A stretch of DNA of 64,000 nucleotides from Methyloterricola oryzae (GTDB taxonomy: Bacteria; Pseudomonadota; Gammaproteobacteria; Methylococcales; Methylococcaceae): contig NZ_JYNS01000002.1 of NCBI RefSeq assembly GCF_000934725.1, positions 248,001 to 312,000 on the forward strand, written 5' to 3'. The position numbers were made by a program, and so were the translations under genes. Within the stretch, counting starts at the first letter, position 1, and the number at the start of each line of letters is the position of its first letter. Positions 43,773 to 63,650 of this stretch are shown here, piece by piece. Below the pieces are notes generated by a model. It made no database searches. It saw nothing but the letters and a program-made list of their open reading frames with translations, and was not told the origin of the DNA.

Positions 43773-43979
43773 GTGAAAGCCTCCTAATCGTGATTTGGCC
43801 GCAAGAATACCGGGCGCCGCCGGCCGAGCCAAGCAGGCCGACTTGAACTCTCCGGAACATCGGCCTTGAGACCGACGGTTTGTCTGTTCCTGATGATGAG
43901 TAGTCCCCGCTCACAAGGGGGATTTTATGCTGCTCGAACGTCTTATCCTGGGAGGAGGCCGTAAAGTGCCTCCATGACT

Positions 43980-44118
43980 ATTGATCAGGCCCAAATGTAC
44001 CCTCCAGGTATTTTGGGCCGACGCCGATGTCGGTAAGCGCCCGACCTTGGCTGACACGGCCTGTGGCCGCGCCGGGGCATCCGGGCCCCGCGTTAACCCG
44101 GCCACTAAGGGCCGGGTT
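43980..44118 (+). repeat. Multi-hairpin dispersed repeat, copy A
   Basis: About 85% identical by eye to 63362-63500 on the other strand. Five consecutive hairpins are visible: H1 GGCCCAAA/TTTGGGCC (43988-44019, conserved CTCC loop), H2 (44023-44051), H3 CGGCC-TGT-GGCCG (44057-44069), H4 CGGGGC/GCCCCG (44073-44090), H5 AACCCGGCC/GGCCGGGTT (44095-44118). It ends 22 bases before the ATG of an exported-protein gene and points the same way. An additional hairpin (GGAGGC/GCCTCC, 43954-43973) just upstream is not shared with copy B. Confidence 0.8.
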
Positions 44119-44139
44119 AGCAACAGCGAGGAGTTCAGC

Positions 44140-44496
44140 ATGATCAAGACCATGATTGTTTATCTTGTGCCCTTGTTTGGAATTATGCCGCTGCCCTGGT
44201 CGGTAGACGCCGGAATCCTGTCGGGCGGTCATTGGAGCGCCGCGGCCTGCGACCAGGAGCCAGTCCCGTCCGCCATCGAATCGAGCGGCGCTGAGGCTTG
44301 TAACGCCAGTCTCAAGCGGGTGCGGAAATTCGAGCAAAGGGCCCAGGCCTACATCACCTGCGTGGTGCAGGAGGCCAATGGAGACTACGAGGCCAGCGCG
44401 AAGGCGGCCAATGCGCAGCCGGCCCGATTCGAGGCGGCCTTGAGTGAGATCCAGGGCCCGGCCACGGCGATCAATGCCAGGCTCGACCGGCCATAG
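44140..44496 (+). CDS. Small secreted protein of unknown function
   Basis: A 118-residue protein with a signal peptide ('KTMIVYLVPLFGIMPLPWSVDA'). The mature part is Ala rich and has three Cys ('AACDQE', 'AEACNAS', 'YITCVVQ'), with 'LKRVRKFEQRAQAYITCVVQ' reading as an amphipathic helix. I do not recognise a family. The ATG at 44140 has GAGGAG seven bases upstream. The frame stays open back through the hairpin repeat, but that stretch is unlikely to be translated. It is followed after 15 bases by a methyltransferase gene. Confidence 0.65.
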   Translation: MIKTMIVYLVPLFGIMPLPWSVDAGILSGGHWSAAACDQEPVPSAIESSGAEACNASLKRVRKFEQRAQAYITCVVQEANGDYEASAKAANAQPARFEAALSEIQGPATAINARLDRP

Positions 44497-45312: not shown

Positions 45313-46233
45313 TCAGGCCGTCACGCCGGCCTTTTCCTTGCGGCGGCCGACGATGCCCATGCCGGCCAGGGCGCTGCCGAACAGCCAGACAGCGGCGGGC
45401 ACCGGCACGGCCGAGGTGGTGATGCCTAGCTTGTAGTTGTCCACCCCGGTATTCCATTTGGAGAAGTCGACGCCGCCCAAATAGATGGAGTAGATTTTGC
45501 CGGCTTCAGCCAGGAATACGAAGTCGTTGACGGCGTCAACGTTATCCGAATATTTCAGGTTGGTGAGGCCCGTTGTGCCGAACGGGTTATCCTGGTTATA
45601 CGGACGTCCCGCTGCGGGATTATTCCAGGCGCCATGGTGGCTGTAGTTGCCGGTATTGGTGTCCATACCCTCGAAAACGGTGATTCCGAACCGGCTGAAG
45701 GTGGGGCTCTGGGCGCCCAAGGTTGACGGGTTCAGGTGGACGAACTGGGTCACATTGGACTGCAGCAGACCGATATCGGTCTGGTGTTTCCAACCGGTTG
45801 GGGTCACGTTGTCACGCCATGCACCGCCGCCGGTGTCGATCTCGGCGGCAGTGGTGTAGTAAGGCGAGGAGTTGTACTTGGTGGAATCGGCAGCCGAAAT
45901 TTCCGCGGAGTCGCCTGCACTTCCAAGTGAAACTGCCCAGTTCAGGTGCGATGATCCGCCGTACCCGAACGGAAGAGCGCCGCCTGTCGTACCGAGCCAA
46001 GGAAGGACTGTGCCTTTGTTGCCCTGGCTCTCTGGACCGGTCGCGATAGTGTCCACATCTGCTCCGTCATAAACTCGGGTCCAGCCATCAGTGGCGGTCG
46101 TCGCGGCTGTGGTGAAAGTGTTGTACATGGTGGTGGAGGCCGCCGAAGCATCGGAGATGGCCGCGACGGATAACGCGGAGCCGGCGAGAGCCATGCTGAT
46201 GGCCTTGGCCAGTTTAGTTCTATTTTTGTTCAT
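45313..46233 (-). CDS. VPLPA-CTERM (exosortase-type) sorting-domain protein
   Basis: A 306-residue secreted protein. A signal peptide ('ISMALAGSALSVAAISDASA') opens it, and a Thr/Ser/Gly/Asn-rich mature domain with few charges and no Cys follows. The C-terminal sorting tail is 'VPVPAAVWLFGSALAGMGIV' followed by a basic 'GRRKEK' cluster, the VPLPA variant of PEP-CTERM recognised by an exosortase. No exosortase gene is in this window. Such proteins go to the surface or the exopolysaccharide matrix. It has its own terminator and a long upstream region. Confidence 0.88.
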   Translation of the reverse strand: MNKNRTKLAKAISMALAGSALSVAAISDASAASTTMYNTFTTAATTATDGWTRVYDGADVDTIATGPESQGNKGTVLPWLGTTGGALPFGYGGSSHLNWAVSLGSAGDSAEISAADSTKYNSSPYYTTAAEIDTGGGAWRDNVTPTGWKHQTDIGLLQSNVTQFVHLNPSTLGAQSPTFSRFGITVFEGMDTNTGNYSHHGAWNNPAAGRPYNQDNPFGTTGLTNLKYSDNVDAVNDFVFLAEAGKIYSIYLGGVDFSKWNTGVDNYKLGITTSAVPVPAAVWLFGSALAGMGIVGRRKEKAGVTA

Positions 46234-46869
46234 GTATAGTTACCTTGTCACTGTGCTATGAGTGGTTGGTTTTTTTCATAGGCAGTGATGTCCGCGGCGC
46301 CCCGCTCCCGCTAAGGTGTGGTGTCGCGGTCCTCCCCATCACATGGAAGGCAGCCCGGCTGGCTTGGTGCCCAAGTCCCGTGGCTTTCCGGCCCCGCCTC
46401 GCGGCGAGTGTGGCATTGGCATCCTGCCTGCTGACGGTCCAACTTCCATCCATGGCTATAAGCCTTTATGTCCTTGTGCTTTCCCGAAGCGCAGCGTCGT
46501 GACGCCTAATGTCATAAGTGAGGAACTGAGAGCAACAGCTTACGACATGGTGCTACATAAGCATGTGCTATGCCATATTCAGCTACTGGTTTAACAATGG
46601 CTTATGAGTCTATTACTGGACGAAAGTGTGGGAAATCACTTAGTCTGTGGGATCTGGCTCAGAATGCTGGCGCCCTGAGGGTTGTTGCCGCGTTGTATTT
46701 CCGGTGCGCGCGATAAGGGAGTGACTTAGTTATAGAATGAACCGCAAGCAGGGCCTTTCTGCGACTTTGGAAGGGTGTCAAGCGTCTGGCTTGACGGCAC
46801 GATTCCTGGGACGATCTAATTGCTTTCTCCCAATCGCACCATTTCTACTGATCTCATTCGGATCTCTTT
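46234..46869. other. Intergenic region between the VPLPA-CTERM gene and the phosphatase gene
   Basis: About 640 bases without a credible gene. AAGGT precedes the minus-strand ATG at 46233 as a ribosome site. Composition is mixed and includes an AT-rich stretch around 46500-46620. Sequences faintly like sigma-54 -24/-12 elements occur on both strands, but their -12 parts are poor, so I call no promoter. The region is long enough to hold regulatory sites for both genes. Confidence 0.45.
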
Positions 46870-62513: not shown

Positions 62514-62969
62514 TCAGGGTGTAGGGAGTTGAACATCATGTTCGGAAAAGCGGCCGTTTCCGGCTCCGAGGTGGCAGGCACCGCAATTGGAAGGCTTCTT
62601 CACGGCGTCCCAGACGCGCTTTGGCACTTCGTCGTGCTCGTGGAGAAACCAGCGCGATTCGGTAATGCGGAGTAGCGGCTGCGCCGGGGGCGGATTCGGT
62701 TCGCGCCGCGCGCCCTGCTCCAGATAGGCCTGGATCTGGCGCTGCACGTCAGGCTCCAGGCTGGCATCGGAATCGAAGTGGCGGTCCAGGCCTGCAAGCA
62801 AGGCGCGCCACGAGGATGCAGGGAGCAAGCGCGCAGGGTAGGGAACATGACAGGTTCCGCATTCCTCCGTGTATCGTGGATCCGGCGGGAGCTGCTTACC
62901 GCCGCTGGCTGCAGCCTCGACAGCAGCAAACAATAGAACAGTCATCAGGACGCTGAGTGGGAGTTTCAT
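62514..62969 (-). CDS. Diheme cytochrome c (DHC)
   Basis: A 151-residue exported cytochrome. The signal peptide is 'LSVLMTVLLFAAVEAAAS'. Two haem-binding motifs are present: 'CGTCH' near residue 40 and 'CGACH' near residue 130. The start at 62969 overlaps the SHP-like gene stop by ATGA. In known SHP operons this protein hands electrons to SHP. Confidence 0.92.
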   Translation of the reverse strand: MKLPLSVLMTVLLFAAVEAAASGGKQLPPDPRYTEECGTCHVPYPARLLPASSWRALLAGLDRHFDSDASLEPDVQRQIQAYLEQGARREPNPPPAQPLLRITESRWFLHEHDEVPKRVWDAVKKPSNCGACHLGAGNGRFSEHDVQLPTP

Positions 62970-63373
62970 GGCTTCACCTGTTGAAGGCTTAGCAGATAGG
63001 TTAGAACATCGCCTTTTTCGCGGGGCGTGCAAGCCCGCTTGAGCACATCATTGCAATTGCGCCTGAACCATTTTTCGGTCTTGCGGGCATCCGTGAAGCG
63101 CTCGGGGTTGGCCGATGGCGCCAGGGGGGCTATCGCCTTGCTGGTCACCGCATGCCTGCCAGGACCCATCGGATTTTTGGTGTGGCAGGTGGCGCAGCTC
63201 CAGTCCCCGTGGGGCTCCTGGAAGAAGCGCTCTCCGGTCTGAGCGTCGAAGCCGACGAATCCCGTAGCGCTCGCCTTGGATTCGTTTGCGTATCTGTCCA
63301 GGATGTCGTCCGGCTGCTGTGCCGCTGAGCCGTTACCGGCCATCAGAAGTAGGATTATTATCCCGGCCCTCAA
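62966..63373 (-). CDS. SHP-like monoheme cytochrome c (DUF1924)
   Basis: A 135-residue exported protein with one haem motif ('DWSCATCH') and the block 'KTEKWFRRNCNDVLKRACTP', typical of DUF1924/sphaeroides haem protein. That family binds O2 or NO and uses an Asn as sixth haem ligand, for which the Asn in 'NCND' is a candidate. The frame stays open upstream to 63523, but that stretch is the hairpin repeat seen elsewhere, so I choose TTG at 63373. It yields a proper signal peptide ('RAGIIILLLMAGNGSA'). The start is uncertain; the gene itself is not. Confidence 0.8.
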   Translation of the reverse strand: MRAGIIILLLMAGNGSAAQQPDDILDRYANESKASATGFVGFDAQTGERFFQEPHGDWSCATCHTKNPMGPGRHAVTSKAIAPLAPSANPERFTDARKTEKWFRRNCNDVLKRACTPREKGDVLTYLLSLQQVKP

Positions 63374-63500
63374 ATTGGCCGGGTTAATGCGGGGCAGGGA
63401 TGCCCCGGCGCGGCCAGAGGCCGCGTCAGCCAAGGTCGGCCGTGTTACGACCTTGGCGTCGGCCCGAAATACCAGGAGGGTATTTTGGGGCCTCATCAAT
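63362..63500 (-). repeat. Multi-hairpin dispersed repeat, copy B
   Basis: Reverse-strand homologue of 43980-44118 with all five hairpins retained. H1 has AAATACC/GGTATTT with loop CTCCT, H2 CCAAGGTCG/CGACCTTGG, H3 CGGCC-TCT-GGCCG, H4 GGGGCA/TGCCCC and H5 CCCGGCC/GGCCGGG. Differences from copy A often fall in loops or are paired. H5 overlaps the proposed TTG start of the SHP-like gene, so the element forms that operon's leader. Confidence 0.8.
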
Positions 63501-63650
63501 AAAGGATAGGCTACTCGATTCATGGAACTCTCCGTCGCTTGCGGGGAGTGCAGAATCGCAGGGTTTGCTTAAGGCAACATTACGGCGGATAGAGAACGAA
63601 GGCCCACCACGGTTTGGCCTTGATGCCGTGTTTTTAAGCGGCCCTTCCGG

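Follow-up and report, generated by a model that had tools for sequence, protein, structure and literature searches.

A recently mobile MITE family whose five-hairpin interior is unusually well kept across several gammaproteobacterial families

The window (the whole 64,000-nt stretch of Methyloterricola oryzae DNA analysed here) carries two copies of a dispersed element, A and B, on opposite strands (Table 1). The copies agree at 118 of 139 aligned bases (85%), matching the first-pass annotation, which had described a repeat of about 138 bases recurring at 63362–63500 on the other strand; its bounds are refined here. Seventeen bases separate the end of copy A from the ATG (44140) of a small gene, and the open reading frame that contains this gene (43981–44496) has no Pfam match. 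Copy B is inserted in frame within the signal-peptide region of a DUF1924 gene (CxxCH motif in the product, read by eye), adding 144 bp beyond one TA; with the copy and one TA taken out, MNRVAYPL is joined in frame to ILLLMAGNGSAA, giving a signal peptide by eye. The earlier statement that a secreted-protein gene follows shortly after the element holds for copy A, but not for copy B. Elsewhere in the window, a c-di-GMP-I riboswitch (46346–46424, minus strand; Rfam, 53 bits) lies about 110 bases upstream of an open reading frame (45313–46233, minus strand) that ends in what we take to be a PEP-CTERM-like sorting signal.

Table 1. Element copies, hairpins of copy A and adjoining genes in the window.
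Feature	Position	Strand	Remarks	Basis
Copy A, whole element	43979..44122	+	right end degenerate (TTAGCA in place of TTAATA)	comparison with other copies
Left inverted end of copy A	43979..43992	+	TATTGATCAGGCCC	
H1 of copy A	43988..44019	+	loop region CCCTCCAGG	fold and other copies
H2 of copy A	44023..44051	+		fold
H3 of copy A	44057..44069	+		fold
H4 of copy A	44070..44092	+	loop region GCATCC	fold
H5 of copy A	44094..44119	+	terminal hairpin, including right inverted end	fold
Small, possibly secreted protein gene	44140..44496	+	adjoins copy A; outside element	
DUF1924 (PF09086) gene	62966..63523	-	copy B near 5' end	
Copy B, whole element	63356..63501	-		comparison with other copies

The element has inverted ends (TATTRATCAGGCCC on the left and, read as the reverse complement, TATTAACCCGGCC on the right), which are carried by the outer members, H1 and H5, of five hairpins in fixed order. 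The H1 loop region is CCCTCCTGG in most relatives within the family, vs. CCCTCCAGG in copy A. Both copies fold more stably as RNA than any of 200 shuffled sequences (copy A, -75.8 kcal/mol, z -4.3; copy B, -80.7 kcal/mol, z -6.6), and copy A refolded with DNA parameters has a z of -5.2. The predicted fold of copy A comprises H1 to H5. For copy B, the five hairpins previously described hold for H1 to H4, while H5 is shortened to seven pairs, and bases near the left end pair with bases just before H5.

Complete copies are 143–152 bp long, with lengths not confined to multiples of three, and the element is therefore non-coding; these frame-breaking lengths rule out a coding reading. The first-pass annotation had reached the same view from an excess of substitutions at first and second codon positions, but that pattern is weak (8, 8, and 5 of the 21 mismatches between A and B at positions 1, 2, and 3 of the open frame). 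The orientation of the element relative to genes is as expected by chance: the gene on the 3' side (beyond H5) points the same way as the element at 11 of the 24 M. oryzae copies, and at 24 of the 46 copies with a known right neighbour in G021, a genome of the same family (47 of 67 copies placed, one of them lacking a right neighbour). These counts use a purpose-written gene finder that scored none of the copies (M. oryzae and placed G021 copies) as intragenic, and that may miss insertions at gene starts, such as copy B. Because orientation is random, we reject the proposed leader or cis-regulatory function; a riboswitch is rejected on the same randomness together with the absence of an Rfam match, and a general regulatory role for adjacent genes is not indicated. 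No curated Rfam family matches the element (the sole match touching a copy is PhotoRC-I, at 17.8 bits against a cutoff of 45), which agrees with the earlier view that no named class fits, and a literature search found no description of it.

By sequence search, the M. oryzae genome contains 24 matches, copy A included, of which 17 span 125 bases or more with no less than 84% identity and the rest are partial or more diverged. G021 holds at least 67 distinct copies, and 40 of these are 96–100% identical to the query copy, indicating recent amplification and recent mobility. Among 61 genomes (M. oryzae and 60 relatives), the element was found in at least nine, representing six of 26 genera, all in the family of the window. 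A covariance model (R1) matched 11 of 311 genomes from the order, comprising ten in that family (one, G031, poorly) and G309, from another family of the order, with three copies of about 170 nt. A second model (R2), searched over 369 genomes sampled from the class, matched 13: M. oryzae, G008, and one genome from each of 11 other families. When the sequences are folded singly, the five-hairpin plan is plain in G324, G522, G518, G570, and G377, less complete in G610, G319, and G618, but doubtful in G506, G530, and G546; the plan is kept in at least seven families of bacteria and probably in ten. Matches were absent from plasmids (seven element queries), phages (one query), and viral contigs (one element pattern), and an exact 21-mer scan of a genome contig collection gave two matches, neither of them the element.

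Window-type elements are flanked by a doubled TA (YTA...TAR). Among 29 copies in G021 (30 loci, one dropped because it is cut by a contig end), a pyrimidine precedes the first TA in 28 and a purine follows the last TA in 27, and no duplication longer than TA occurs at any flank offset. The right-hand TA is TG in five M. oryzae copies (L005, L007, L008, L011, and L015). Empty sites are of two kinds: one instance of a repeated target in G021 is element-free with a single TA (the repeat is paralogous, and its flank differs by one base), and G026 and G014 lack the element at the orthologous site where G021 has an old, shortened copy, upstream of an htpG-like gene (identified by eye). Four further alignments of sister-genome sites were too poor to reveal an empty site. 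Together with the copy numbers, these sites bear out the earlier suggestion of a dispersed, mobile element. L100:619-862, which shares a G021 region with some of the element copies, belongs to another dispersed repeat family; G026 has many members of it, and G014 and G030 have some.

The duplication is longer in two more distant relatives. All 12 G522 copies with both ends lie between YTAR 4-mers, which are identical on the two sides in 11 (permutation, 3e-5). In G570, the 4-mers are identical in seven of the 16 copies with both ends (0 of 100,000 permutations), four of the seven being YTAR; 14 of 30 G570 sites have no recognisable right end and are not counted, and a pattern that fell on H4 rather than on the end gave 0 of 24 identical 4-mers. 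In the G522 and G570 copies, the 4-bp duplications are accompanied by ends of IS5 type (GGAARCNCTGA-type), and a second end type, CAGGCTGTTGAAAAA, bounds the elements of G377 and G518. Some G570 elements (e.g., L235, L237, and L247) have an insert in the H2 loop, so that one repeat sits inside another; the insert is presumably REP-like, judging by resemblance.

A candidate mobiliser is present in G570: a 1.2-kb insertion sequence, for which 12 sites score equally. Its ends start with GGAAACGCTGA, as do those of the G570 elements; all seven copies read have identical 4-bp flanks (six of them YTAR); and its transposase matches NF033581 IS5 at 325.7 bits (cutoff 140). Similarity to at least 5000 plasmid records marks it, on sequence grounds, as a common IS type. 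In the M. oryzae genome, one IS5-family gene (L262:798-2188, contig C5) has inverted ends CAGGRTGTTGAA and TTAA flanks; these ends resemble the CAGGCTGTTGAAAAA ends of the five-hairpin elements in G377 and G518. An autonomous partner with window-type ends was not found in M. oryzae or G021: 75 of the 77 window-type end matches in G021 were examined and are element copies, some truncated, or isolated matches; none of nine element-free G021 stretches with end matches coincides with a PF01609 or PF13358 match; and none of the 11 PF01609 loci examined (of 13 in the two genomes) has a window-type end. G522 has no PF01609 match. An IS630 partner was rejected, since PF13358 has no match in M. oryzae and three in G021 whose ends do not fit. 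No transposase was seen by eye among open reading frames flanking relatives at 11 loci, nor in those around the copies at L100 (two) and L102, which had been candidates for an autonomous form and are 3'-truncated copies ending in TTAACCC. Those three copies (L100:1001-1123, L100:3792-3913, and L102:2893-3013), and L221 in G522, break off within H5, with the remainder 99% identical to full copies; either an assembly break or hairpin cutting could be responsible.

Covariation was assessed on the five-hairpin plan of the single-sequence folds; RNAalifold on the MAFFT alignment favoured another, long-range pairing. Alignment A2 (MAFFT) comprises 37 copies from the window's family, leaving out deleted or diverged copies (L017–L019 and L021–L024), L046, L051, and near-duplicates. 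In A2, two-sided changes occur in nine of 52 pairs, against a shuffle mean of 4.4; they amount to 34 cells, compared with 5–14 for structures slid along the alignment, though slid structures show them in 4–11 pairs. Alignment A3 has 36 copies (33 from A2 and the three from G309), and 25 of its 51 pairs carry two-sided changes; the diverged copies L010, L012, L015, and L020 were dropped, which may have raised its paired percentage. Alignment A4 has 19 rows, nine from the window's family and ten others from nine genomes (G570 twice), omitting second or partial copies (L149, L167, L172, L173, L180, L183, and L184), L150, and the doubtful L175, L178, and L179. In A4, 94.5% of cells pair, in rows aligned to the covariance model and hence in an alignment that favours the structure. 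Two-sided changes there affect 46 of 51 pairs (shuffle mean 30.2; slid, at most 31) and 226 cells (shuffled 61.5; slid, at most 59), and covariation is 0.679 vs. 0.191 shuffled and at most 0.124 slid. The first-pass reading of an element whose substitutions often preserve pairing is supported. Of the supporting signs named there, many copies and two-sided changes were found, but no consistent position or orientation before genes.

Across families, shape seems to be kept more than letters. Relative to a G021 copy, the ten out-group rows have identities of 0.43–0.58 in stems and 0.44–0.62 at unpaired positions, overlapping ranges; taken together, the loops are thus no better conserved than the stems. 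Two motifs are found repeatedly: TCCTG in the H1 loop (6/10 out-group and 9/9 family rows; copy A itself has TCCAG) and CATCCNTG at H4 (5/10 and 8/9). Three distant copies score higher with the covariance model than with a sequence-only model from A3 (L170, 70.6 vs. 15.9 bits; L171, 66.1 vs. 14.5; L169, 95.7 vs. 41.7), a comparison affected by the different weighting of the two models, and the sequence-only model finds none of L181, L182, and L177 at E 1.

The element is short, non-coding, and multicopy, with terminal inverted repeats, target-site duplication, and empty sites, and its membership of the MITEs is well supported. We consider it very probable that the element moves as a non-autonomous DNA transposon, on which a DDE transposase (from the IS5 superfamily, most likely) acts in trans. 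For the G522 and G570 relatives, mobilisation by IS5 is indicated by ends and duplications; for the window copies, we infer an IS5-type enzyme. Such a transposase would act on the inverted ends and insert at a YTAR-like target, the duplication being TA for window-type copies or 4 bp in G522 and G570. Because the duplications differ, there may be two mobilisers. The folded single strand or cruciform may matter for the element's own life cycle; our guess is that it would fold as single-stranded DNA at replication forks, presenting or protecting the ends. Alternatively, hairpin-templated repair might keep the arms matched.

A version of the MITE explanation in which the fold is unselected is a serious contender, though less likely than not: quasi-palindrome correction, by template switching on the arms, would yield compensatory changes as a mutational by-product. 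It is consistent with the similar tolerance of G.U and A.C in stems, with out-group loops no better conserved than stems, and with the neutrality expected of MITE copies once inserted, but correction alone leaves the recurrence of hairpin number and order in at least seven families unexplained. Somewhat more tentatively, the elements may form a class-wide superfamily in which the five-hairpin core and the loop motifs TCCTG and CATCCNTG are kept, ends are swapped, different transposases serve different lineages, and the fold is active (e.g., as a handle of single-stranded DNA that a host protein of replication or repair would bind). It is unlikely that the RNA fold is the selected function, as a cis-regulatory leader or selfish sRNA that is incidentally mobile. 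The RNA folds are very stable (z -4.3 to -9.8 in five sequences), the A4 covariation is strong, and a report on Coxiella describes QMITE1 as transcribed and QMITE2 weakly so (PMC5896051). However, a selected RNA of this strand should tolerate G.U better than A.C, with equality as the neutral expectation, and the stems show no significant G.U excess (47 vs. 34 cells in A2, p 0.18; 40 vs. 34 in A3, p 0.56; 25 vs. 16 in A4, p 0.21), although all three alignments lean to G.U; an RNA role is therefore unsupported, DNA hairpins or palindrome correction fitting better, and random gene orientation and the lack of an Rfam match also count against it. Single-stranded-DNA transposition of the IS200/IS605 or REP/RAYT type, with an HUH enzyme recognising hairpins, is more improbable still, as hairpins at both element ends and the lack of duplication beyond TA in window-type copies would suit it but the two-fold symmetric target and 4-bp duplications of G522 and G570 are DDE-like.

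The interior of a MITE is usually considered filler. In these elements, the five-hairpin plan is kept while stem letters diverge and ends differ by lineage, providing a testable case that a folded interior acts in transposition, replication, or host tolerance. The covariance model also allows annotation of such elements, which could otherwise be mistaken for terminators, leaders, or novel RNAs.

Among known systems, IS5-family MITEs and insertion sequences are closest to the G522 and G570 elements, which share a YTAR-like target, a 4-bp duplication, and GGAARCNCTGA-type ends (found also around the IS5_4 transposase of G570), but differ in an interior that is a five-hairpin chain. IS5 itself duplicates a 4-bp YTAR, whereas window-type copies (in G021) duplicate TA only, have other ends, and have no partner found. 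The palindromic elements ERIC, REP/BIME, and RPE are likewise dispersed and structured, and RPE, like copy B, can lie in frame within genes; by description, they are set apart in size, sequence, or host. REP is a single palindrome of 20–40 bp, and the REP-like identity suggested in the first-pass annotation is ruled out by a length of about 145–170 bp, five hairpins, inverted ends, and target duplication. We know of no five-hairpin plan in Correia/NEMIS, Nezha, or other TA-duplicating MITEs. These too are 100–200 bp long, high in copy number, and mainly intergenic (cf. the review PMC10969869). For Coxiella QMITE1, the published description reports no orthologues in other genomes; QMITE1 and QMITE2 are gammaproteobacterial MITEs whose predicted folds are also very stable, with duplications (2–4 and 7–9 bp) unlike those of the present element (PMC5896051).
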